From Myxococcota bacterium (lineage in GTDB: Bacteria; Myxococcota; XYA12-FULL-58-9; JALHOP01): a stretch of 54,277 nt of DNA. The notes under the pieces are model-generated. The model saw nothing but the letters and a program-made list of their open reading frames with translations, did not search any database and was not told the DNA's origin. Below, piece after piece: positions 1,766 to 53,328 of this stretch. Location of the stretch: the NCBI GenBank assembly GCA_022842935.1, contig JALHOP010000022.1, positions 1 to 54,277 of the forward strand, written 5' to 3'. The translations under genes and the position numbers were made by a program. Position 1 is the first letter of the stretch. Each line of letters starts with the position of its first letter.

Positions 1766-2797
1766 TCACGACGCAAACAGCAAGTCCTCCTTGTATTCGA
1801 CTTGGTCACGGAGAATGTGGAAGGCAGCGACGCACAGCTTGTGCGCGACGGTGTTGTAGACCACGAGCTTGCCAGCGCGGCCGACGTGCTTAGCGAGCTG
1901 CCGGTCGAAGTAGGTCCGAATGCGCGGGTAGCTACGCACCGCGTGCGTCGCAGCCTGGTTGAAGGCCCACTTGAGCGTTGGGCTACCCTGTTTGCTTTGC
2001 CGTCCGCGACGGCGGACGACACCTGATGATGCGCCGATGCCGGGAACGACACGGCAGTACGAGCTGTAGTGCCGAGCCGACGCGAAGCGTTCGACCGGCC
2101 CGGTCTCGTACAGGATCGTAAGCCCCAGCATCAGCGCGACGCCAGGCATGGTGAGCAAGCGTTGGAAGTCGGGGCGTTCCTGCACGCCGGCGAGCAGGGC
2201 GGCCTCGACGGTCCCGATCTGCTCCGTGTAGAGCCGGAGGCGTTCAATCTCTTGCTTGGCATGCAGCTTCACCGAGGGGTCGTCGAACCGAGCAACGAGC
2301 GCGTCATCGGTGAGTCCCTTGGTGCTATGGCGGTTGTGGTCAAGTACGCCATAGCGGTATAGCAATCGGCGGATTGCGCCGTACTCCGATGCCCGCAAGC
2401 GCACGAGGATCATGCGTCGACGCAGTAGGTCTCGCGCGCCCCGCTGCTCGCGCGGGTAGATGTGCGCCTTCGGGATGGCTCCGAGGCGCAGGAGGCGCGC
2501 GAGCGTGAGCGCGTCACGCTTGTCGGTTTTCACCTTGGCCGCGGTGATCACGGCGAGGCCCAGCACGTGCGCAAGCACGACATCGAAGCCTCGGTCCATG
2601 AGCCCGTCGACGAGCCAGTACCAGTTGAAGGTACTTTCGACGACGACCTCGGGCTTCGGGTCGAAGCGCTCGAGCTGCTCGAGTACCGCGCCGAGCTCGC
2701 ACGGCACGTTCCTCTGCAAGCAAACACGGTCCGTCTCGTCGACGACGCATAGCTGCGCGGCCCTCGAACCCAAGTCGATCCCACAGTAAAACCTCAT
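1766..2797 (-). CDS. IS110-family transposase (DEDD recombinase)
   Basis: A 343-residue protein starting MRFYCGIDLGS. The RuvC-like DEDD residues are visible: D8 in GIDLG, E54 in VVVEST, and D92/D95 in KVKTDKRDA. The C-terminal Tnp_20 part has MPGVALMLG, the SSYCRVVPGIGAS stretch, and KQGSPTLKW with the serine expected to act in IS110 recombination. Length is normal and the frame is intact, so it may be active. The open frame runs upstream to 3022, but the ATG at 2797 gives the family N-terminus and leaves the leader non-coding. No frameshift seen. Confidence 0.93.
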   Translation of the reverse strand: MRFYCGIDLGSRAAQLCVVDETDRVCLQRNVPCELGAVLEQLERFDPKPEVVVESTFNWYWLVDGLMDRGFDVVLAHVLGLAVITAAKVKTDKRDALTLARLLRLGAIPKAHIYPREQRGARDLLRRRMILVRLRASEYGAIRRLLYRYGVLDHNRHSTKGLTDDALVARFDDPSVKLHAKQEIERLRLYTEQIGTVEAALLAGVQERPDFQRLLTMPGVALMLGLTILYETGPVERFASARHYSSYCRVVPGIGASSGVVRRRGRQSKQGSPTLKWAFNQAATHAVRSYPRIRTYFDRQLAKHVGRAGKLVVYNTVAHKLCVAAFHILRDQVEYKEDLLFAS

Positions 2798-3037
2798 GAG
2801 GCGGTCTCCCTTTCGTTGTGCGAACACACTCGAATGAGGGTACCCGGCGAATTCGCGTCGGGTACGGGGACCGCCTCTTTGGATTATCTGAGGATAGCGG
2901 CAAGACCAGCGCCTTCGGCGCCGATCACCGCAGGCCTCAGTCGCGCCTTTATCTGCCTGGTGTAGATCGCAGTCCGGGGCTTCGTTACCGGCCTGCGTCG
3001 GCAGACGACCGCCATCTAACATTCGCCGACCCTGCTA
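2798..3037 (-). ncRNA. Structured 5' non-coding segment of the IS110 element, candidate bridge RNA
   Basis: IS110-group elements encode a bridge RNA in the non-coding region next to the transposase that specifies target and donor DNA. Here GAGGCGGTC (2798-2806) can pair with GACCGCCTC (2867-2875), enclosing GTACCCG/CGGGTAC arms around the palindrome GCGAATTCGC. The pairing, position and length suit a bridge RNA, but the exact ends and the guide loops cannot be assigned from this single copy. Confidence 0.4.
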
Positions 3038-8516: not shown

Positions 8517-8676
8517 GGCACACACTCCTAAGTGAGCTTCGGGCGAGGTTGGCGGATCTCGACGAGCTCATAGAGAAACCGAAGGGCAGACACCCCCCAG
8601 AGGTCTATGCACTCGTTATCGTCAACGGGGATCCGGTGTTGCGTGCGTCACCGCTTCAAGAGACGCCACGGCGTCA

Positions 8677-9210
8677 TCAAGGTGCGCAAACTTGCACGCA
8701 CTTCGTGCTGCTCGAGCCCTCGACGCAGGTGAAGCCTGGATCGCAGTCCCCCGCCTGTTCGCAGGTGGCGGCGCCCGGCGGGAAGGCATCGTCCTCGGTA
8801 ATACAGACGCCAACCTGGCCATCGGAGTCCGGCAACGGATCACATTTGAGGTCGCTCGGGCAGGTGAAGAACTGCTTGCAGCACTCGAGAGTGAACAGGG
8901 CGGCGCTCTGCTGGCAGAGATCGAGCATGATGTCGTCGCAGCTCAATGCGACGACCTGAGCGATCTGACGGCTCGTGAGTGGGGATCTGTCGCAATTGTC
9001 GACGAACTCTTCCTCGTCGAAGGCGCCGCCGCAGCCGTTGTCGGTCAGGCATTCGTTGCTACGGTCGTAAAGGTCTTGGCAGGTTGCGCTCGTTTGAACC
9101 TCGCGATCGCCGTCGCCGCCGTCTCCGTCGCCTTGCTGCTCGCCTGGATCACGATCCGAGCTGCACGCCATTGCCGCGACCAACATCCCCAACATCGTCC
9201 AATGGCGCAT
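8677..9210 (-). CDS. Cysteine-rich lipoprotein
   Basis: A 177-residue protein from MRHWTMLGMLVAAMACSSD; the signal ends in AMAC, a lipobox. A low-complexity acidic/Gly linker follows (GDGDGGDGDRE), then about a dozen cysteines, including CQDLYDRSNECLTDNGCGG, LECCKQFFTC and CDPGFTCVEG near the end. It is a myxobacteria-like surface lipoprotein with several disulfides. Role unknown. About 160 bases without a gene separate it from 8516; nothing is seen there. Confidence 0.8.
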   Translation of the reverse strand: MRHWTMLGMLVAAMACSSDRDPGEQQGDGDGGDGDREVQTSATCQDLYDRSNECLTDNGCGGAFDEEEFVDNCDRSPLTSRQIAQVVALSCDDIMLDLCQQSAALFTLECCKQFFTCPSDLKCDPLPDSDGQVGVCITEDDAFPPGAATCEQAGDCDPGFTCVEGSSSTKCVQVCAP

Positions 9211-9388
9211 CCCGAGATCCTCCACCTTTCTCTACACATCTACCGCCTCCCTTGGGCTTACCTCACGAACCTTCTTGAGGCGAAACTCCCATCGGGCACT
9301 TCATACGTGGGGCCTTTTGACCGTGACGCGACGTCCCATGGTCATTTAAAGTCACGTCTTTTCAATGGCTTACGTCAGATCTCAAATA

Positions 9389-9402
9389 GGCACACCACCT
9401 GC
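9389..9402 (+). promoter_or_regulatory. Sigma-54-type promoter for the first Ser/Thr kinase
   Basis: AGGCACACCACCTGCA has GG at 9389-9390 and GC at 9401-9402, exactly ten bases between, as in the -24/-12 elements of sigma-54 promoters. It lies about 40 bases upstream of the kinase GTG. A similar site stands in front of the second kinase at 41900. Confidence 0.5.
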
Positions 9403-9443
9403 ACAGCATTACGCCAGCGCCATTCGGGAGGAAACACGCCATC

Positions 9444-10454
9444 GTGTCGCAACCGCGGCCGTCATCATCGCAGACCCGCTCGCGGGTCACGCTGCAGCGT
9501 TATGAACGTCTTCAGTTGCTTGGTCGCGGAACCATGGGCTCAGTTTACGCGGCGCGTGATCGACTGAACGGGAAGCGGGTCGCGGTGAAGGTGCTCCATC
9601 CGCACTTTGGCGCCGAGTCGGCCACCGCTGTGCGCTTTGCGCGCGAGGCCAAAGCGCTGCGCGGCATCAGGCATCCCAACGTCACCCGGCTCATCGACGT
9701 CATCGAAGACGGCGCCGCCCTGGCGTACGTCATGGAGCTCCTCGACGGGGAGAGCCTACGTACCCTGCTCGACCGAGCGCCCGAACCGCCCCTCGAGGTC
9801 GTGTACGCTATCGCGATGCAGATGACCGCGGCGCTCGAAGCCATCCACCGTGTTGGTGTCATCCACAGGGACGTCAAACCCGAAAACGTCTTCTGCAATC
9901 GTGGGCCGCACGGCGCGCTCAATGTGAAGCTCCTCGACTTCGGTGTCGCCAAAGTGAGCTTAAGCTCTTCGCGCGTCGATTCGACCGCCGCAGGCACGAT
10001 GCTCGGAACTCCGGCTTACATGGCGCCGGAACAGGTGCGCGGCCACGCAATCGACGCGCGCACCGACGTCTACGCCTTCGGCGCCGTGCTCTACGAGATG
10101 CTCTGCGGTCGCCCCCCGCTCAGCGCGCGCAATCTCGGGGAAATGATCCTCCGGCTCATGGCGGTCACGCCCGTGCCGCCGAGCGTTGCTTCCGGGCGCA
10201 AACCTCGCCTCGCGCCCGCCTTGGAAGCCCTCGTCATGCGGTGCCTCGCCAAGGCACCCACCGACCGTCCCGAATCGATGACCAGAGTTCGCGCAGAGCT
10301 TTTGGCCTCCGCAGACGTGATGAACGCGCCCACCGCCATCATGCATGTGGATGAGATCAATGCCATACTCCGGAGAGGTCGTAGTGACCCGTCCGAGGAG
10401 GGCTGTGCGAACATGAGGTCGTGGGGGAAAGAGTGCTCGCGAGCCAGCGCTTGA
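9444..10454 (+). CDS. Hanks-type serine/threonine protein kinase
   Basis: A 336-residue kinase without a membrane segment. All catalytic motifs are present: glycine loop LLGRGTMGSVYAA (25-37), VAVK with K49, HRDVKPEN (141-148), DFG (165-167), GTPAYMAPE (188-196). The C-terminal ~45 residues are a short tail with no extra domain. The start is GTG with GGGAGGA upstream. The FHA gene follows directly and starts six bases after this stop (or overlaps it), suggesting that kinase and phosphopeptide reader work together. Confidence 0.95.
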   Translation: MSQPRPSSSQTRSRVTLQRYERLQLLGRGTMGSVYAARDRLNGKRVAVKVLHPHFGAESATAVRFAREAKALRGIRHPNVTRLIDVIEDGAALAYVMELLDGESLRTLLDRAPEPPLEVVYAIAMQMTAALEAIHRVGVIHRDVKPENVFCNRGPHGALNVKLLDFGVAKVSLSSSRVDSTAAGTMLGTPAYMAPEQVRGHAIDARTDVYAFGAVLYEMLCGRPPLSARNLGEMILRLMAVTPVPPSVASGRKPRLAPALEALVMRCLAKAPTDRPESMTRVRAELLASADVMNAPTAIMHVDEINAILRRGRSDPSEEGCANMRSWGKECSRASA

Positions 10455-27720: not shown

Positions 27721-27768
27721 GATCATTCCTCCCTCGTGCGACTGCGTCTTAGCCCATGCGAGGCAACA

Positions 27769-28974
27769 GTGAAACCCCGAGCCTTGCGGCACTACGTAGC
27801 CTTCGCCGTGCTCCTCGTGACAGTCACGACCGTGACGCCGCTCCCAGCGTCCTGGTCGCCGTTCGCCGATGAGGTCGACCGCACGAGCATGCAGGTCGGC
27901 CTCGCCGCTGTGTCTGGGCGCACGACGCGCGATGCCTTCATCCGCGATCTCCAGCTCATCGACCCGCTGCATCAGCTCGATCCGTATCTCGTCGTCGGGG
28001 ACAGGACCGTCGCGCTCTACGCGGACGCCAAGCGTCGTGACCTCATCGCCGAGGTCGTCCTGCGGACCGATGCGAGCACTGGTCCGCGATGGCAGGCGCT
28101 CGTCGCCGACCCGGGACATTGGGGCGGCACGTGGTCGCAGCTCGAGCACCGGCATGTGACGGTCGGCGCTGGCGCACCGGTGCGCGAAGGTGACCTGACC
28201 CTGGCCACCGCGCTGCGCTTACGCGCGAAGTTGCCGAACGTCCGTTTGACGCGCACCCAGGTGGCTACCACCGCGTTTCCCACAGGGGTTCGTCTCGGTT
28301 ACGACCCGGCCCACGAACGTCGCATCATTCTCGGGGAGAGCTTTTCCCCCTGGCTTGGCTGGCCAACCTTGCTCGACCACGTGCTTCTCTGGCCAGAGCG
28401 CCGTGCCCTCGCTGGCGCGCGTGCCTACGAGGCCTATACGCACTACGATCTCCGCTCGCGGCCTGCGGAAACACAGCCCGACGATGTCTTCGTGTCCATC
28501 CACTACAACGTCTCGAGCTCCGGGCAGGCGAACGGCATCATGGCGTTCGTCTACGGCGACGCTCTCGAAGGCGAGCTCGCGACGCTCTCGCAGCGCTACT
28601 GGGCGGTGCGTCGCGCACTGGACGGTCATCTCGCGACCTCGCGTGAGCTTGCCACGCGCTTTGCCTGGTCGCTGCAGCGGCGCATGAACCTGCCACCCAT
28701 CGGTCCCGACCCCGACCCGCAGCGCCCGAACAAGATCACCCTCGATGAAAAGGCCGGTGTCCACGCGCGCAATCTCGCAGTGCTTCGCCGGGCACCGGGA
28801 CCTGCGGTGCTGCTCGAAGGGCCGTGCATGAACGCCCCCGACGAATACCCGCGTCTGCTATCGGAGCGCGTGAATCTCGACGGCGTGATGGTTCCGGTGC
28901 GGGCCGAGGAATACGCGGACGCCATCGCGGACGTCATGCGCGAGTTTTTTGCGTCTTTGGATCCGACCCCGTAA
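27769..28974 (+). CDS. N-acetylmuramoyl-L-alanine amidase (Amidase_3 family)
   Basis: About 401 residues. An N-terminal hydrophobic segment (YVAFAVLLVTVTTV) acts as signal or anchor. The zinc-amidase residues are in order: His in VADPGHWGG, Glu in VREGDLTLATALRL, His in FVSIHYN, and the catalytic Glu in VLLEGPCMN. It would cut the amide bond between MurNAc and the stem peptide in the periplasm. A GTG at 27769 is preferred for its GAGG Shine-Dalgarno; a GTG at 27736 is possible. Divergent from the S9 pair across 48 bases. Confidence 0.85.
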   Translation: MKPRALRHYVAFAVLLVTVTTVTPLPASWSPFADEVDRTSMQVGLAAVSGRTTRDAFIRDLQLIDPLHQLDPYLVVGDRTVALYADAKRRDLIAEVVLRTDASTGPRWQALVADPGHWGGTWSQLEHRHVTVGAGAPVREGDLTLATALRLRAKLPNVRLTRTQVATTAFPTGVRLGYDPAHERRIILGESFSPWLGWPTLLDHVLLWPERRALAGARAYEAYTHYDLRSRPAETQPDDVFVSIHYNVSSSGQANGIMAFVYGDALEGELATLSQRYWAVRRALDGHLATSRELATRFAWSLQRRMNLPPIGPDPDPQRPNKITLDEKAGVHARNLAVLRRAPGPAVLLEGPCMNAPDEYPRLLSERVNLDGVMVPVRAEEYADAIADVMREFFASLDPTP

Positions 28975-42953: not shown

Positions 42954-43196
42954 CCTCTCGGTTCTCGGTTCTCGGTTCTCGGTTCTCGGTCATCGGTCAT
43001 CGGCATCGGTCATCGGTCATCGGTCATCGGCATCGGTCATCGGTCATCGGTCGTCGGTCGTCGGTCGTCGGTCGTCGGTCATCGGTCGTCGGTCGTCGGT
43101 CGTCGGTCATCGGTCGTCGGTCATCGGTCGTCGGTCGTCGGTCGTCGGTCGTCGGTCGTCGGCTCTCGGTCATCGGACCTCGGCTCTCGGTCATCG
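42954..43196 (+). repeat. 7-bp satellite array (unit GTNNTCG)
   Basis: About 34 copies in tandem, beginning right at the kinase stop codon. Units are GTTCTCG, GTCATCG and GTCGTCG, with two 6-bp slips (GCATCG). The three unit types are grouped and interspersed. The same unit, in the opposite orientation, makes up the array inside the RluA gene at 44749. No CRISPR-like spacers. Confidence 0.95.
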
Positions 43197-44347: not shown

Positions 44348-44529
44348 ACGACTCTCCTTGGGGCGCCGCGATAGCGGTCGCGTGAACCTGATGGTTTCAA
44401 GTGGGATGCCAACGGCAAGGCTTGGACGGTTGCGGTTTAGAGCGCGGTTGCGCGCGCATCGCGGACGCGTGTGTCATTCTGCGACGAATTTTCTCGACGG
44501 ACGCTGCCCCGACGCTCGAGAAGAGCGCC

Positions 44530-45657
44530 ATGCGCCGTAGCATCAAGGTGAGTGGACCTAACGCTGGCCGACGTGTCGATGCGTTTCTTCGCCGCGAGCT
44601 CGCGACCGTGCCGAGGCACACGCTGATGAAGTGGCTGCGGACCGGCGTGGTGCGGGTCAATGGCAAGAAGGTCAAGCCAGAGGCGCGGCTGAATGAAGGG
44701 GATGAGATTGGGCTGCCGGTCTTGGACGATGACCGGGCACCGAAGCCCGAGGACCGATCACCGAGAACCGATGGCCGATCATCGAGAGCCGACGTCCGAT
44801 CACCGAGAGCCGATGACCGATCACCGAGAACCAATGACCGATCACCGAGAACCGATGACCGATCACCGAGAACCGATGACCGATCACCGAGAACCGATGG
44901 CCGATCACCGAGAACCGATGTCCGATCGCCGAGAACCGATGACCGATCGCCGAAGCCCGATCTGGTCGTGGTTTACGAGGACGCCGACCTCCTCATCGTC
45001 GACAAACCCGCGCACCTTCCTGCGCACGCCGGGACCGGCCATCGCGATTCCCTCGCTGCCCGCGTCATCTCGTACCTCGCCGCCGAACACGCACCGGTCG
45101 GCCACAAGCCCGGCCTCGCCCAGCGCCTGGACAGCGGCGTTAGCGGTCTTGTCCCTATCGGCAAACACGCGGCCGCCCTTCGCGTACTCGCCGCCGCCGT
45201 CGCCGCCGACCAGGTGCGCAAGATCTACCGTGGCATCGTTCTGGGTGAGCTCGCCTCGGCAGAGGGCGAGATCCTGCTCCCGTTGCGCATCGATGACCAG
45301 CCAATGGGCAATCGCCCTCGCGTTCACCCAGACCCCAAAGGTCTGGCCGCGCACACGACGTGGAAGCGCGTCGAGGTGCTTCTTGGCGCAAGCGTAGTCG
45401 ACGTCGAGATTCACACCGGCCGCACCCACCAAATCCGGGCGCACCTCAAAGCCATCGGGCATCCCCTCATCGGCGATCCGCGTTACGGTGACACTGCGCG
45501 TGAGAACAAGCTCGGCGTCGCGAAGACAATCGATCGCCCCGCGCTACACGCCCGACGCCTTAGCTTTCGCCATCCGACGACCAGCGAAGAGCTTGCAGCG
45601 GATGCGCCATTCCCCGCCGACATCACCCGCCTTCTTGCCGTGCTTCGCCGGCGCTAG
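44530..45657 (+). CDS. RluA-family pseudouridine synthase with a heptapeptide-repeat linker
   Basis: A 375-residue protein from MRRSIKVSGPNAGRRVDAFL. S4 RNA-binding domain (1-64), a 70-residue insert of ten heptads (74-143, consensus D-D-R-S-P-R-T), then the RluA catalytic domain: VVYEDADLLIVDKPAHLPAH, the catalytic aspartate D201 in AQRLDSGVSGL (Gln in place of the usual His before R-L-D), and HTGRTHQIRAHL. It isomerises uridine in rRNA or tRNA. The insert is encoded by a 7-bp satellite and replaces the normally short linker. ATG at 44530 preferred over a frame open from 44401. Confidence 0.92.
   Translation: MRRSIKVSGPNAGRRVDAFLRRELATVPRHTLMKWLRTGVVRVNGKKVKPEARLNEGDEIGLPVLDDDRAPKPEDRSPRTDGRSSRADVRSPRADDRSPRTNDRSPRTDDRSPRTDDRSPRTDGRSPRTDVRSPRTDDRSPKPDLVVVYEDADLLIVDKPAHLPAHAGTGHRDSLAARVISYLAAEHAPVGHKPGLAQRLDSGVSGLVPIGKHAAALRVLAAAVAADQVRKIYRGIVLGELASAEGEILLPLRIDDQPMGNRPRVHPDPKGLAAHTTWKRVEVLLGASVVDVEIHTGRTHQIRAHLKAIGHPLIGDPRYGDTARENKLGVAKTIDRPALHARRLSFRHPTTSEELAADAPFPADITRLLAVLRRR
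44749..44958 (+). repeat. 7-bp satellite array inside the RluA gene (unit CGANNAC)
   Basis: 210 bp made of ten 21-bp repeats, each of three 7-mers (CGATCAC, CGAGAAC, CGATGAC). Because 21 is a multiple of three, the frame is kept and each 21-mer encodes one heptapeptide. The unit is the reverse complement of that in the array at 42954-43196. Confidence 0.95.
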
Positions 45658-46936: not shown

Positions 46937-49315
46937 TCAGGCAACTCGCGAGGTTGGGCGCTGCGCAGGCGCCGCGTACATGGGCCCTTGCATCGGCTGC
47001 CCACCGAGGTGCCGGAAGAAGGCCTCTGGGTCGGTCACGTGATAGCCCTGCAGACCATCATTGTAGGCGCGACCGTCCGAGCGTGTACCTGGCAACCGCG
47101 TGACGGAGCGGATCCACGAGGGCACCTTCACCATGCTGACCTGGTAGCCTCCCTGCGAGAGGTAAACTGGCCCCTGGGGATTCGTGGGTGCGTAGAGAAG
47201 ATTGGTTCGCGGGTCCACGTAGAAGCGGATGCGCGCGTTGGCGCGGCTCGCGGTTGCGTTGTCGTAGCCCTCATAGAACACGCGTCCGTCGCTGTCGGTG
47301 TCACGCCTGTCGATTGTCACCGAGTGGCGGATGCCGGAGCCGGCGTTGCCGCGGGCCGCCCCTGGGTCGCCACGCCGCATCACCGCGACCTGCACTGGGA
47401 CCGACATGTCGAGCATGGCATCGATGGCGCGACGCCCGGCCGTGAGATGGCGCTCGTCGGCGCGAATGGCCCCGAGCACGTTGTTCGCGCTGTACGCCAT
47501 GTAGTGGTTGAAGCCGCCAGCGAGCGTCGTGCGCGCCATGTTCGACGAGGCGATGGTCTCGGCCGCGCGTCGGAAGCACCCGGCGGGGTCGGAGTCACGG
47601 TAGCCCGAGAACCGCGTCGTGATCTGGACCGGACGCACATTCGTATCGCGTAGCGCAACCTCCGCATCTGGGACGCGCTGGGTATAGGCGCGGAACTGCT
47701 GCTCGAAGCCCTGCAAGACATGGCGGCGGATGAGACTCAGGACGCGTCCGGCATCGCTCTCAGTGGTCATGCCACCGCGGGTGTCGCCGAGGCTGATGGT
47801 GTTGGGCCTGAGGTCGTCCTCGCGATTGCCAGGGCGGGCGGCTAGCGTGTCGAAGAGGTAGCTACCGAGCTCGCCGGAGCTGCGGCCGCGGCGCACCACT
47901 TCTTCCGGGTCGATGCCGGCGTCGCGCAAAAGATCGGCCACTCTGCGCGGGCCACTCGGGGTCGAAACCTCGTGGTCGAGTCGCTCGCGCGAGACGAAAC
48001 CTACAGCCAGCCTATCGGCGAGGTCCTGGCGGGTGAGCAACTCGTAGCGCCGCGTGTGCCGGTCGAGCACTTCGAGGACACGTCCGGCAGGGGTCCGCTC
48101 GCCGTTCGCGCGGTTCAGCCACGGGCGAATGACTCCGTTGTGTCCGCCAAAGCGGTTGCTCGCCAGCATGGCATGCAAGCGCTGCCAGGCCGCGCCTGCC
48201 GCAGCTCGGTCGGTGCCGCCGCCGATGCTATCGCCGCTCACGACGAAACGACGTAGCTCTGCGACATCGACCCCGGCGCTCCGCAAAGCCTCGGTCAAGT
48301 GTTGCCAAGCCGCGGGATCTGTTCGTTCGATCTCTCCCAGGTCGAGACGCGCGTCGCGGTGGTAGTTGGCGAAGGTGTCGAGCTCGATGACCGTACGTGC
48401 GGCCAACGGCTCGTCGCGACCGCAAATGAGCGGGCTCTCCGCGAGATCGGCCGACGGCGGTGGGATGAGGCTATCGGGGCGCGACTCTTCGCGCGAAGGG
48501 CCCTGCTGCACCCCGCGTTGCTCGAACAGTCCGCGCAAGATGAGCACCGCGCGATACGTATCGTTCTCTTGGGCGCGCTCGGGGAGACGTGGCTCGAGCG
48601 TGAATGGGGTCTCGCGTTGCACTACGGCGCCGGGACCACGTGCTGTCATCGTCCCGCCGTTGCCGTCCCGATCGACCTTGTCGTCGAGGCGGCGAAACAT
48701 GCGCGACAAGGCGTCGGACGACAGCTCTTGTGGGAGCTGGGAGCGCTCGAGCCGCGTGCGGAGCTGATCGTAGACGCCGGCGCGCCGCAGCGTATCGACC
48801 TGTTCGGTGGTCAGGTTGCGGAAGCGATCGGGGTTGAAGGCGCCGTTCATGAAGCCGGCGACAAACTCTTCTTCCGTGAAGCGAACGTCGTTTTCTGTGC
48901 TCTCGAGGATGCGTTTGAACGCGCGACCGGCATGCGTGAGCGCGGCCTCACCCGTCGCTTGGTCGGCTGAAGCAAACACCCTGATCGACCGCGAGGTGCC
49001 GTTGACGTCGAAGCTGTCGAGCCAGCGGAAGACCTCGGCGGCCCTCGAGCCGCTGATGTAGCCATTGCGGTCGGCCATCGCTCGTAGCTGCTGCAAACGA
49101 GCATCGGCCATTTGTTCCGCTAACGCGTCGCGGCGTTCCGGTGTGAGATCACGCCGACGTTCGAGCTCGCCGCGAATGATGGCGACGGCGGAGGCACGCA
49201 GCTCGGCGCGCACGGTACTGTCACCGAGCAGCGTGTTGACGTTGAGCCGGGCCTGCTGGAAACGCGTGCTGAGGTCGCGAACGTCGACGGTGTTGGCGGC
49301 GGTACGCTGCGACAT
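46937..49315 (-). CDS. Large modular protein of unknown family with putative Cys-His-Asp domain
   Basis: A 792-residue protein without signal peptide or membrane segment, similar over most of its length to the protein at 50464-53328. Shared blocks in order: RNGYISGSRAAEVFRWLDSF (84-103), EEFVAGFMNGAFNPDRFRNL (149-168), GRVLEVLDRHTRRYEL (411-426), NTISLGDT (505-512), and a C-terminal domain with IRFYVDPRTNLLYAP and SQGGYQVS. C580, H664 and D685 fall at spacings matching C776, H863 and N885 of the paralogue, suggesting a papain-like fold. Several D-x-N-G / D-x-D-x-N-G turns could bind calcium. Function unknown. Confidence 0.8.
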   Translation of the reverse strand: MSQRTAANTVDVRDLSTRFQQARLNVNTLLGDSTVRAELRASAVAIIRGELERRRDLTPERRDALAEQMADARLQQLRAMADRNGYISGSRAAEVFRWLDSFDVNGTSRSIRVFASADQATGEAALTHAGRAFKRILESTENDVRFTEEEFVAGFMNGAFNPDRFRNLTTEQVDTLRRAGVYDQLRTRLERSQLPQELSSDALSRMFRRLDDKVDRDGNGGTMTARGPGAVVQRETPFTLEPRLPERAQENDTYRAVLILRGLFEQRGVQQGPSREESRPDSLIPPPSADLAESPLICGRDEPLAARTVIELDTFANYHRDARLDLGEIERTDPAAWQHLTEALRSAGVDVAELRRFVVSGDSIGGGTDRAAAGAAWQRLHAMLASNRFGGHNGVIRPWLNRANGERTPAGRVLEVLDRHTRRYELLTRQDLADRLAVGFVSRERLDHEVSTPSGPRRVADLLRDAGIDPEEVVRRGRSSGELGSYLFDTLAARPGNREDDLRPNTISLGDTRGGMTTESDAGRVLSLIRRHVLQGFEQQFRAYTQRVPDAEVALRDTNVRPVQITTRFSGYRDSDPAGCFRRAAETIASSNMARTTLAGGFNHYMAYSANNVLGAIRADERHLTAGRRAIDAMLDMSVPVQVAVMRRGDPGAARGNAGSGIRHSVTIDRRDTDSDGRVFYEGYDNATASRANARIRFYVDPRTNLLYAPTNPQGPVYLSQGGYQVSMVKVPSWIRSVTRLPGTRSDGRAYNDGLQGYHVTDPEAFFRHLGGQPMQGPMYAAPAQRPTSRVA

Positions 49316-49373
49316 CCTTCATGCCCTCACTAGAGCAGATCGCCCCATCCTCGAAGTTATCGTTGCCGGGCCA

Positions 49374-50459
49374 ATGCGGATGAGCATGATGGCTGACATG
49401 GTGGCATCCGGAATTCTCAATCAATGGAGGGCGTTAGGGGCGCTTGCTGGACTGGTCACGAGCAGCTGTTTCCTGGCTGCGCCGGGCTATCGTGGCGCCA
49501 AAGACGGCCATTTCGACGGGCACGAATTCGTGAACCTCGAGAAGCGGGAAGCTCACAGCGTCGCCAGCGCCATGGCGCTCTTCGTCTTCACCAGCCGACC
49601 TGCTTGGGAGCAGCGTCAGGTCATGCCGACCGTGCCGCCTCGCCGCGTCGCTCATGGCGAGCTGCGCATCACGTTCGTGAACCACGCCACTATGCTGGTG
49701 CAATTCGACGGACTCAACGTGCTCACCGACCCCGTGTACTCGGACATGGTGGGACCCCTCGCGTTCGCTGGTGTGCAGCGCGTCCATGGCCCGGGCGTCG
49801 CTCTGGCTGACCTTCCGCCAATCGACGCCGTTCTCGTCAGCCACAACCACTACGATCACATGGACCTGCCCACTCTTCGTTCGCTATCGCGTACACATGC
49901 TCCGCGTATATTCGCGGGCCTTGGTAGCAAGCGTCTGCTCGACGAAGAGGGTGTCCTGGGTGGCGAGGACCTGAACTGGTGGGAAACGAGTGAGCTCGCG
50001 CCGGGCATTCGCGTCACCGCGGTCCCTGTTCGCCACTGGTCACGTCGCGGGATTGGCGACACGGACAATACTCTGTGGTGCGGCTTCGTCATCGAGACCT
50101 CGCAAGGTCCCCTGTACTTCGCGGGCGATACCGGTTTTGGAGGGCACTTTCGCATGGCGCGCGAGCGCTTCGGGCCGATGCGTGCCGCGTTACTCCCCAT
50201 CGGTGCCTACAAGCCCGAGAGCTTCATGCACAGCTCGCACATGAGCCCCGACGAGGCGCTCGACGCGCACCGAGAGCTCGAGTCACAGCTCAGCATCGCC
50301 ATGCACTTTGGCAGCTTCCAGCTCGCCTTCGAACAGCAAGGCGAAGCCGAGGCGCGCTTGCTCGCCGAGGCCGCACGCCGCAATGTTTCTGGCTTCGTCG
50401 TGCTCGACCCTGGCGATGCGCGTACCGTCGCTCCGCTCGGCCAACAAGCCCAGAGGTAA
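49374..50459 (+). CDS. Metallo-beta-lactamase-fold hydrolase, NAPE-PLD-like
   Basis: About 361 residues. N-terminal hydrophobic segment ALGALAGLVTSSCFLAAPG gives a likely lipobox (TSSC). Zinc ligands in order: SHNHYDHMD (H-x-H-x-D-H), His in VPVRHWSRRG, Asp in YFAGDTGFGG, His in AMHFGSFQL. The LRITFVNHATMLVQFDGLNV (opening strand) and W-x-x-R-x-x-x-D region are those of NAPE-hydrolysing phospholipase D-like and UlaG-like members. Likely acts on a phospholipid or phosphodiester. Lies between the two large paralogues. Confidence 0.85.
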   Translation: MRMSMMADMVASGILNQWRALGALAGLVTSSCFLAAPGYRGAKDGHFDGHEFVNLEKREAHSVASAMALFVFTSRPAWEQRQVMPTVPPRRVAHGELRITFVNHATMLVQFDGLNVLTDPVYSDMVGPLAFAGVQRVHGPGVALADLPPIDAVLVSHNHYDHMDLPTLRSLSRTHAPRIFAGLGSKRLLDEEGVLGGEDLNWWETSELAPGIRVTAVPVRHWSRRGIGDTDNTLWCGFVIETSQGPLYFAGDTGFGGHFRMARERFGPMRAALLPIGAYKPESFMHSSHMSPDEALDAHRELESQLSIAMHFGSFQLAFEQQGEAEARLLAEAARRNVSGFVVLDPGDARTVAPLGQQAQR

Positions 50460-50463
50460 GGCC

Positions 50464-53328
50464 TTACAGACGCGCGCCGCGCTCACCGCGCGGGCGAACG
50501 CCATTGTTGGCGGCGGCGAAGTCATCGCGCCAGTTGCCACCAGTCTGACCCCGTATCGAGGTCACCTGATAGCCGCCCGATCCTATCGTGTAGCGAGCAT
50601 TGCTGGGCGCGAAGAGTAGACCGCTATTGCGGTCGCGATAGAGGAAGCCCACGTAGCGCAGACGACCACTTGCGTTCTCGGAATAGTGGTAGCGGACGCG
50701 GCCGGCGGAATCGACATCACGTCCGATGACCGTGAACCAGTGGTCGGTGATACCGTCGCGGTTCACGTCTGTACCACCGTTGCGAGCGACGCCCAGGATC
50801 ATGCGGTGGTTATTGTTGAGGCCCCAGTTCAGGTAGTTGTTCAACGAACGGAAATCTTCAGGGTTGCCACCGATACGACCGCCTGGTTCCTCGCTCTGCG
50901 CGACCCAGTGCCCTTCCCACGGATGGGCTCTGCGGCCAGAGGAGGGCGTCGCACCCGGCGCCGCGCCGCGATATGCCACGTCGTCGAGTGAACGCAGCAA
51001 GCAGTCATCGCCCGCTCGCATGTAGTGAAGTCGGCCGGGCGTCAGGTTGATGGTTGCCATCTCATCGGGGCGCGCGAGGTCGGCATCTGAGATGTCGCGG
51101 TAAGCGCGCGGGGTGTGCGTATTCGGTCGCATGAGACGCGTGTCACGCATGAAGTCGAGGACTTGACCCGCCATCGAGCGCTCGTTTCCGCGCGTCGTCG
51201 TGTGACCCAGCGAGAGGGTGCCAGGGTGCGGATCGAGCCGGCCGTAGTCGCTCGGCAGTGCGGCGAGGCGACGGTAAAGCTCCGCAGCGGCGACGCGACC
51301 CTGGCGGCGCTGTGGGTCGCGCGCCATCCAGTCCGCAAACTCGTTGACGTTGAACTGGCCGCCGGTCAGCTGGGTGAGGCGCTCGCGAACGGTGTCGCCG
51401 GGAAGGGGATTCGGGATGACGCCCGGCACGATATCGCGCCGGGGTAGTCGGCGGTCGAGATCCGCGGCGGTCAGGTGGAAGTTGCTGTTGGCGACGTCTT
51501 CAGTGAGGCGGTCGAGCGTGCGGATGTCGTGGCGCTGCGTGTAGCGGTCGAGGATCTCGACGACACGGCCAACCCGAGTCTGATTGAACTGTCCTTCGTA
51601 GAGACCGAGCGGACGGCTTCGATCGCCACCCTGGATGCCCTGGAGGGTGGCGTACAGGCGGCTCATCTCGGAGTTTGGGCCGCCGATGGTGTTGTTGGCC
51701 TCGGGGGGACGCGCCAGGCCCTGGATAGTGGCCCACGGAAGCCCCGCCTGAGCTAGCGCCGCGCGATCTTCCGGAGTGATAGCGCCGATGTTGATACGCG
51801 CGAACTGCATGTAGTCGCGGAACGCGTCACGGTCGACGCTCGCGCGCTCCGACAACCGCTGCTGGTTCTCGGCCAAGATGTCGCCGGTATAGTTGGGGTC
51901 GGGCAGCGGCGGATCGAACGGGCTGCGTTGCGGCTGGTCGGGGTCTGCCGCCAAGCCAGAGCGAAACACCGCGTTCAAACCGGCGACGATACGGCCGGCT
52001 TCGGTGCTCTCGTCCGTGCCTCTTGGAAGATTGAACGGCAAGTCGTCGGCCGGGGTGCGCGACGCGTAGTGCGAAACGAAAGAGTCGCGACTGCCGTTGG
52101 TGTCAGGTTTGTCGGCGGCGCGGAAGAGAGCCCGTAACTGCGGCACCGTGAGCTGCGCGGAGCCGCCCGCGAGACGTTCGCGAAGCTGCGCCAAGACACC
52201 GGCCTGATCGAGAGCGCGATATGCTTCGGGGTTCGTGCGCTCGAGGTTTCGCAGGGCCTCGGCGTCGAAGGTGCCGTTGCGGAAGCCCCCGACGAAGTCA
52301 CGCTCTTTGACGGTGACCGGGGTGCGGCCGCTCGTGTTGGTCAATACTTGCTGCAAAGCCTCGCCAGCTGGCGTCAACCGCGCATCCATGACTGGTTGGC
52401 CGCCCGCAGGCGCCGCGACCATGGCGATGGAGCCAGTCCGGCCGTTCGAATCGAAGCGGTCGATCCAGGAGAACACTTCGGCCGCGCGACTCGACGGAAT
52501 CACGCCGTCGCGGCCCGCAAGACGGCGGATTTCACCCATGCGCTCGTCCGCTAAAGCGGTGCGAAGGGTGGCGCGCTGTTCCTCGGAGAGCGCCGCGACG
52601 CCTTGCTGCTGGAAAGCGCGACGGGTATTCGCATCGAGGTTGAGCGAGCCCATGACGGTGCGGGAAACGTGTCGATGCGCGTTGGCACCTTTGCGCTCGA
52701 GGTAGCCGTAACCGGTCTCGGCGGCGAGCGTACGCAGACGCGGGTTATCGACCAGCGCAGTGGCCTGTACGTCACTGCCGTCGACCAGCGCCTGGAAAGT
52801 CGCGGCGTCCATGCTTCGCGGCGCCGCTGGGTTGTCGACGCGGGGTGGCTCGGTCGCAGGAGCGCGCCCCAGAGGCCAAGCCGCGGGGGCGGCGCTCGGC
52901 TGAAAGCGGGTCGCGTCGGCTACGGCCCGGAAGTGGGCCTGAGCGACGAGCGCTGGTCGGTCGAATCCAGAGAAGGCCAGATCGAACCGGCTCTGCATTG
53001 GCGGACGGGTGAGAACCGAGGCGTCCAAGCGGGGCGCAGTGAACGCGCCATCGAGCGAAAGGGGCGTGCTGCTGAAAACCGACGGCGTGATGCCCAGTCG
53101 TCCAAAGACGTTGGTCGGATCTGCAGGGATGCCCGGCAGAGTGCTCCGCAGCCGGTCACCCTTGGCCGCAATGGTGTCGCCATTTGCCGGGGCCTGCTGC
53201 TCTCGGCGTCCGGTTTTTCTGCCGGTGCACGTATTCGAAGAGGCGTCGAGGTCGCCCTCTTCGACATCCGTAGCGCCGTTTGGACGCCGGGTTGCGATGC
53301 TGCAGGTTGCTGGTCCGGTGCCGGTCAT
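50464..53328 (-). CDS. Large modular protein of unknown family, paralogue of the 792-residue protein
   Basis: A 954-residue protein. The N-terminal ~220 residues are low in structure (Pro/Ala-rich) with no signal peptide. Then come the shared blocks RDGVIPSSRAAEVFSWIDRF (273-292), RDFVGGFRNGTFDAEALRNL (343-362), GRVVEILDRYTQRHDI (587-602) and GTLSLGHT (703-710). The C-terminal domain has C776 (AGDDCLLRSL), H863 (TDHWFTVIGRD), N885 (YHYSENAS), FLYRDRNSGLLFAPSN and GSGGYQVTS. C-to-H and H-to-N spacings (87, 22) match the paralogue (84, 21). The stop is four bases from that of the MBL gene, inside GTAAGGCCTTAC. Confidence 0.8.
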   Translation of the reverse strand: MTGTGPATCSIATRRPNGATDVEEGDLDASSNTCTGRKTGRREQQAPANGDTIAAKGDRLRSTLPGIPADPTNVFGRLGITPSVFSSTPLSLDGAFTAPRLDASVLTRPPMQSRFDLAFSGFDRPALVAQAHFRAVADATRFQPSAAPAAWPLGRAPATEPPRVDNPAAPRSMDAATFQALVDGSDVQATALVDNPRLRTLAAETGYGYLERKGANAHRHVSRTVMGSLNLDANTRRAFQQQGVAALSEEQRATLRTALADERMGEIRRLAGRDGVIPSSRAAEVFSWIDRFDSNGRTGSIAMVAAPAGGQPVMDARLTPAGEALQQVLTNTSGRTPVTVKERDFVGGFRNGTFDAEALRNLERTNPEAYRALDQAGVLAQLRERLAGGSAQLTVPQLRALFRAADKPDTNGSRDSFVSHYASRTPADDLPFNLPRGTDESTEAGRIVAGLNAVFRSGLAADPDQPQRSPFDPPLPDPNYTGDILAENQQRLSERASVDRDAFRDYMQFARINIGAITPEDRAALAQAGLPWATIQGLARPPEANNTIGGPNSEMSRLYATLQGIQGGDRSRPLGLYEGQFNQTRVGRVVEILDRYTQRHDIRTLDRLTEDVANSNFHLTAADLDRRLPRRDIVPGVIPNPLPGDTVRERLTQLTGGQFNVNEFADWMARDPQRRQGRVAAAELYRRLAALPSDYGRLDPHPGTLSLGHTTTRGNERSMAGQVLDFMRDTRLMRPNTHTPRAYRDISDADLARPDEMATINLTPGRLHYMRAGDDCLLRSLDDVAYRGAAPGATPSSGRRAHPWEGHWVAQSEEPGGRIGGNPEDFRSLNNYLNWGLNNNHRMILGVARNGGTDVNRDGITDHWFTVIGRDVDSAGRVRYHYSENASGRLRYVGFLYRDRNSGLLFAPSNARYTIGSGGYQVTSIRGQTGGNWRDDFAAANNGVRPRGERGARL

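Follow-up and report, generated by a model that had tools for sequence, protein, structure and literature searches.

Paralogous signal-less proteins in a Myxococcota genome carry a C-terminal domain homologous to the C39-like domain of the Bacteroides effector BtaeB

Two large proteins, P0001 and P0002, are encoded at positions 46937-53328 of the window, the whole stretch of 54,277 nucleotides analysed here, and comparisons of sequences and predicted structures place their C-terminal domains in the family of C39-like hydrolase domains typified by the C-terminal domain (CTD) of BtaeB, a type VI secretion system (T6SS) effector of Bacteroides fragilis. The homology and the fold class of this domain are well supported. 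We suggest that the pair are probably duplicated, signal-less, multidomain bacteriolytic enzymes, namely C39-like cysteine peptidoglycan amidases or endopeptidases. What is new is the architecture, in which helical modules precede the domain, and the presence of the domain in genomes without a T6SS sheath. The window belongs to a Myxococcota genome of 6.28 Mb (97% complete), the single representative of its family among the genomes searched. The features are listed in Table 1.

Table 1. Positions of the two proteins, their domains and predicted active-site residues, and the gene lying between them.
Feature	Coordinates	Strand	Basis
P0001, 792 aa: N-terminal helical modules and C-terminal C39-like domain	46937..49315	-	ORF; paralogue of P0002
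P0001 first N-terminal helical (EF-hand-like) module, residues ~56-140	48896..49150	-	Recurs in Myxococcaceae proteins
P0001 C39-like catalytic domain, residues ~560-733	47117..47638	-	Profile matches in 47 other genomes; Foldseek 9jdd_A
P0001 Gln564, probable oxyanion-hole residue	47624..47626	-	16 residues before Cys580
P0001 Cys580, predicted nucleophile	47576..47578	-	Kept in all homologues; helix start in model
P0001 His664, predicted base	47324..47326	-	Invariant column; start of strand 664-673 in model
P0001 Asp685, predicted third catalytic residue	47261..47263	-	Exactly 21 after His in all homologues
MBL-fold lipoprotein between P0001 and P0002	49389..50459	+	PF12706 E 8.5e-42; lipobox-like LVTSSC near probable start ~49389
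P0002, 954 aa as longest ORF: helical modules and C39-like domain	50464..53328	-	ORF
P0002 first helical module, residues ~246-337	52318..52593	-	Aligned block RAAEVFxWxDxFDxNG
P0002 C39-like domain, residues ~755-927	50548..51066	-	Model pTM 0.74; Foldseek 9jdd_A
P0002 Asn761, at conserved-Gln position	51046..51048	-	Placed by spacing and neighbours, no firm alignment
P0002 Cys776, predicted nucleophile	51001..51003	-	Aligns with Cys580
P0002 His863, predicted base	50740..50742	-	Invariant column
P0002 Glu884, aligned with Asp685	50677..50679	-	21 residues after His863; BtaeB has Glu in same column

Both ORFs are open over the coordinates given in Table 1, and BLASTP confirmed the two proteins as paralogues, as the first-pass annotation of this DNA had proposed (E 3e-42; 29% identity over 729 aligned columns). 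The true start of P0002 is uncertain, since the first ~50 codons have little or none of the third-position GC bias found in the rest of the ORF. The only cysteines are residues 298 and 580 of P0001 and 9, 34 and 776 of P0002, and C580/C776 is indeed the sole aligned pair, as had been noticed. A Sec-like hydrophobic N-terminus is missing from both proteins, in agreement with the earlier reading that signal peptides are absent. Pfam and NCBIfam scans of the two proteins yielded no significant match; in Pfam, LysM and PG_binding gave none and Peptidase_C39 and C39_2 gave none over the curated cut-off.

A profile of the domain family, compared with the sequences of the PDB, matched 9jdd (E 2.6e-20) and 9jg8/9jg9 (E 3e-19), which are named as peptidase C39-like. 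Since this profile includes the window pair, the independent test is a lone Myxococcus xanthus relative, which matched 9jdd at E 3.6e-16. The window pair alone reached 9jdd at an E value of only 0.31, so at the sequence level the Myxococcaceae proteins provide a transitive link to the solved structure. AlphaFold models, of moderate local confidence, were obtained for full-length P0001 (mean pLDDT 59, pTM 0.39; confidence low around C580) and for the C-terminal domain of P0002 (pLDDT 69, pTM 0.74). The best PDB match of both in Foldseek was 9jdd_A (E 1.1e-4 for P0001 and 3.9e-5 for P0002, probability 1.00 in each case), titled there as the type VI secretion effector-immunity complex BtaeB CTD-BtaiB from B. 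fragilis; the next papain-type matches of the P0002 model were staphopains (probability 0.80, E 2.9e-2). The P0001 model follows the papain/C39 order: a helix begins close to C580, a strand begins at H664, and the strand after it ends at D685. The papain-like Cys-His-acid hydrolase domain postulated for the C-terminus is thus borne out, and the best match of both models, a cysteine-peptidase fold, gives no sign that the three residues lie far apart. The accompanying claim of a new, unrecognised family fails, because a solved homologue exists in the BtaeB CTD, with further homologues among LysM proteins of Myxococcaceae. No PDB relative was found by sequence for the N-terminal region of the pair.

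The order Gln, Cys, His, Asp was kept in all 50 homologue ORFs (29 from a search with the window-pair profile and 21 from a contig scan with an alignment of the C-terminal domain, partly the same genes; together with the window pair, 37 distinct domain sequences). None lacks the cysteine, the Gln lies 14 or 15 residues before it, and the His-to-Asp distance is always 21. BLASTP, MAFFT and the comparison with all homologues pair D685 with E884 and N686 with N885, which puts the acid 21 residues after the His in both window proteins. Of the triads first described, C580-H664-D685 (spacings 84/21) and C776-H863-N885 (87/22), all the residues are present at those positions, and the distance of 21 stands; N885 as the third residue, and with it the distance of 22, gives way to E884. 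The Cys-His-acid arrangement is far beyond chance, because these residues occur in order, with the same 21-residue step, in P0001, P0002 and each of the 50 homologue ORFs. Larger MAFFT alignments misplace the cysteine of P0002 and that of a protein from the metagenome-assembled genome (MAG) Deltaproteobacteria SJ496, so the position of this residue in the two proteins rests on pairwise alignment. P0001 has the probable oxyanion-hole Gln as Q564, at -16, and P0002 has N761 instead. The best reading of these sequences is that P0001 would have a canonical site (Q564-C580-H664-D685) and P0002 a divergent one (N761-C776-H863-E884).

A profile built from P0001 and P0002 alone matched 49 of the 195 genomes of the phylum, and in 48 of them, the window genome included, the match lay in the last ~180 residues (the other, G077, matched in the N-terminal region). 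Forty-seven further Myxococcota genomes therefore carry the domain (best E 7.9e-28), although a few of the 48 genomes gave weak, partial matches (E 1e-5 to 1e-3); matches to the Myxococcaceae domain ranged from E 1e-16 to 8e-28. The best match outside the window genome was the 422-aa protein of MAG SJ496. Most other relatives are found in Myxococcaceae, usually as one copy per genome, and named carriers include M. xanthus, Corallococcus, Pyxidicoccus and Archangium. The seven other genomes of the same order had no relative. Scanning contigs with the full-length pair recovered no relative, and scanning with the C-terminal domain alignment did. One contig shares its gene order with an M. xanthus contig, although its title is Comamonas sp. 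KCTC 72670, and is probably mislabelled or contaminated. A phage origin is without support, since no relative of the pair was found in phages, plasmids or IMG/VR; nothing significant was matched in the viral structure library.

The partners of the C39-like domain in these relatives are wall-binding or wall-cutting domains. Corallococcus and part of Myxococcus have LysM, a T6SS_VgrG3-like_C muramidase domain (E 2e-52) and then the C39-like domain, and M. xanthus has LysM, a middle domain with no Pfam match and then the C39-like domain; no signal peptide was found in these LysM-C39-like proteins. Other Myxococcaceae proteins begin with a counterpart of the pair's first N-terminal module (E 2.6e-6 to 4e-3), and PG_binding_1 and an Amidase_6-like stretch follow it. 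Both ends of the window proteins are therefore grouped with putative cell-wall-cutting enzymes by the partners that they have in relatives. Proteins with the EF-hand-like module, PG_binding_1 and the Amidase_6-like stretch were seen at seven loci (L067-L072 and L074), with no obvious signal peptide. In Myxococcus sp. RHSTA-1-4 (L036), the LysM-muramidase-C39-like gene adjoins an ORF at 8612-10057 encoding an SLT-LysM-Peptidase_C39_2 protein, also with no obvious signal peptide, and the two genes make up a small group of wall enzymes that lack signal peptides; the comparison between the C39-like domain and this Peptidase_C39_2 neighbour is suggestive only.

Within the helical region, hhalign relates module 1 to module 2 (E 1.6e-4); for modules 3 and 4 it gave no significant relation, and a reading as four repeats was dropped. 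The Ca-binding-like D-x-N-G turns pointed out previously are present, but they do not form canonical EF-hand loops: Pfam EF-hand models match neither protein, and the DxDxDG loop with an acidic residue at position 12 is absent from the pair. The first loop reads DLNHDGKIAGAD in the relative at L069, and that of the window pair lacks the first Asp. Support for calcium binding is weak, with an EF-hand-like loop in relatives and a degenerate one in the pair.

As had been reported, the pair flanks the MBL-fold lipoprotein gene, which lies on the opposite strand; we regard this gene as a neighbour with no apparent functional tie. Elsewhere the window encodes assorted metabolic and regulatory functions, and no secretion locus or gene is present. 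No co-directional putative immunity gene was found among the neighbours (the MBL lipoprotein, an AI-2E transporter and an RRM protein), none of which runs in the direction of the pair. The window also contains an Amidase_3 (N-acetylmuramoyl-L-alanine amidase) ORF at 27736-28974, an IS110-family transposase at 1766-3022 (minus strand) and two tandem arrays of 7/21-base units at 42956-43196 and 44727-44953, similar in sequence and on opposite strands (TCGGTCA and CGATGACCGATCACCGAGAAC). The array at 44727-44953 sits in frame in an RluD-like pseudouridine synthase ORF (44401-45657), where it separates the N-terminal from the catalytic part.

The window proteins most likely cut the bacterial cell wall, because their C-terminal domain is common to a Bacteroides toxin and to wall-binding proteins of Myxococcus. 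We infer that peptidoglycan is the probable substrate, and that its peptide part would be cleaved by an amidase or endopeptidase reaction: Cys580, at the helix start, would act as the nucleophile and His664 as the base, with Asp685 orienting His664 and Gln564 probably contributing to the oxyanion hole. The N-terminal helical modules may bind or position the enzyme, and P0002, with its N-C-H-E residues, may be weaker or changed in specificity. An alternative is that the pair are cysteine proteases acting on proteins, like the staphopains, in prey digestion or matrix remodelling. The papain-like fold and the place of the staphopains as next papain-type matches are in its favour, but the match to 9jdd is far better (E 3.9e-5 versus 2.9e-2) and the partner domains in relatives bind or cut the wall, so that we consider it unlikely. 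A bacteria-directed enzyme, as first envisaged, is plausible.

As wall enzymes, the proteins would act outside the cell, once exported by a route other than Sec or set free by lysis. Homology to the BtaeB CTD, and the T6SS found in many Myxococcaceae that carry the domain, could suggest strict T6SS effectors delivered by the contractile apparatus. However, neither the sheath (VipB, PF05943) nor a VgrG-type spike (Phage_base_V, PF04717) was found in the window genome, despite its near-completeness, and the sheath is absent from 10 of the 48 domain-positive genomes; T6SS delivery was consequently rejected for the window genome, and we give it hardly any credence. The genome does encode two FHIPEP export-gate proteins, possibly flagellar or type III-like, and FHIPEP is over the cut-off in 47 of the 48 domain-positive genomes, but this is a weak association, given that FHIPEP occurs in 161 of all 195 genomes and is also flagellar. 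We consider it improbable that the signal-less C39-like lysins and their Myxococcus LysM relatives are substrates of the needle-less type III-like apparatus on which predatory myxobacteria depend for breaking open their prey (PMC10433427). A stronger competitor, although still clearly less probable than the reading that we favour, is a housekeeping or developmental enzyme that stays in the cytosol and meets peptidoglycan only at autolysis, rather than a delivered weapon. It is consistent with the absence of signal peptides from the pair and its Myxococcaceae relatives, of a visible immunity gene and of sheath and spike, and with the roughly single copy per genome in most Myxococcaceae carriers; the sequence cannot tell autolytic from predatory use. 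The earlier proposal of non-Sec export or of a prey-directed pair is left unsupported: the window has no secretion gene, no co-directional candidate for an immunity gene was seen, and the genome is without sheath and spike.

Nevertheless, our preferred reading remains that of duplicated bacteriolytic enzymes. The occurrence of a Bacteroides T6SS effector domain in signal-less myxobacterial proteins, with conserved Gln-Cys-His-acid residues and in some sheath-less genomes, points to a wall-cutting module that can be reused, rather than to a toxin peculiar to the T6SS. Myxobacteria kill and lyse prey by their Kil and needle-less type III-like systems, and a review describes the effectors of these systems as unknown (PMC10433427). 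Five LysM genes are upregulated during M. xanthus predation (PMC9548883), none of them tied to the C39-like proteins described here, and non-classical secretion is predicted for a Corallococcus LysM GH19 enzyme that has no signal peptide (PMC10875029) and is likewise not tied to these proteins. The proteins identified here supply a small set of candidate lysins for the questions of which enzymes lyse myxobacterial prey and how signal-less lysins leave the cell.

Among known systems, the BtaeB CTD resembles the window pair in its homologous C39-like domain, in C-terminal placement and in the order Gln, Cys, His, acid; P0002 lacks the Gln but shares with BtaeB a Glu as the third catalytic residue. 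Its structures comprise the CTD with the immunity protein BtaiB (9jdd) and the full-length chain (9jg8 and 9jg9); neither these nor other PDB entries gave a sequence relative of the pair's N-terminal region. BtaeB differs in working through a T6SS and in having an immunity partner. The Pfam families Peptidase_C39_2 (PF13529) and BtrH_N (PF14399) have a C39-like residue order and the same fold class, but neither model matches the window pair and the relatives give only subthreshold BtrH_N matches. The MAG SJ496 protein (L006/L035) aligns with P0001 residues 343-733 and differs in being shorter and in having only part of the helical region. The Myxococcaceae LysM-(VgrG3-like muramidase)-C39-like proteins, such as those of M. 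xanthus AM003 (L052) and Corallococcus (L041), share the C-terminal domain, the Q-C-H-D residues and the lack of a signal peptide, and have LysM and often a muramidase where the window pair has helical modules.
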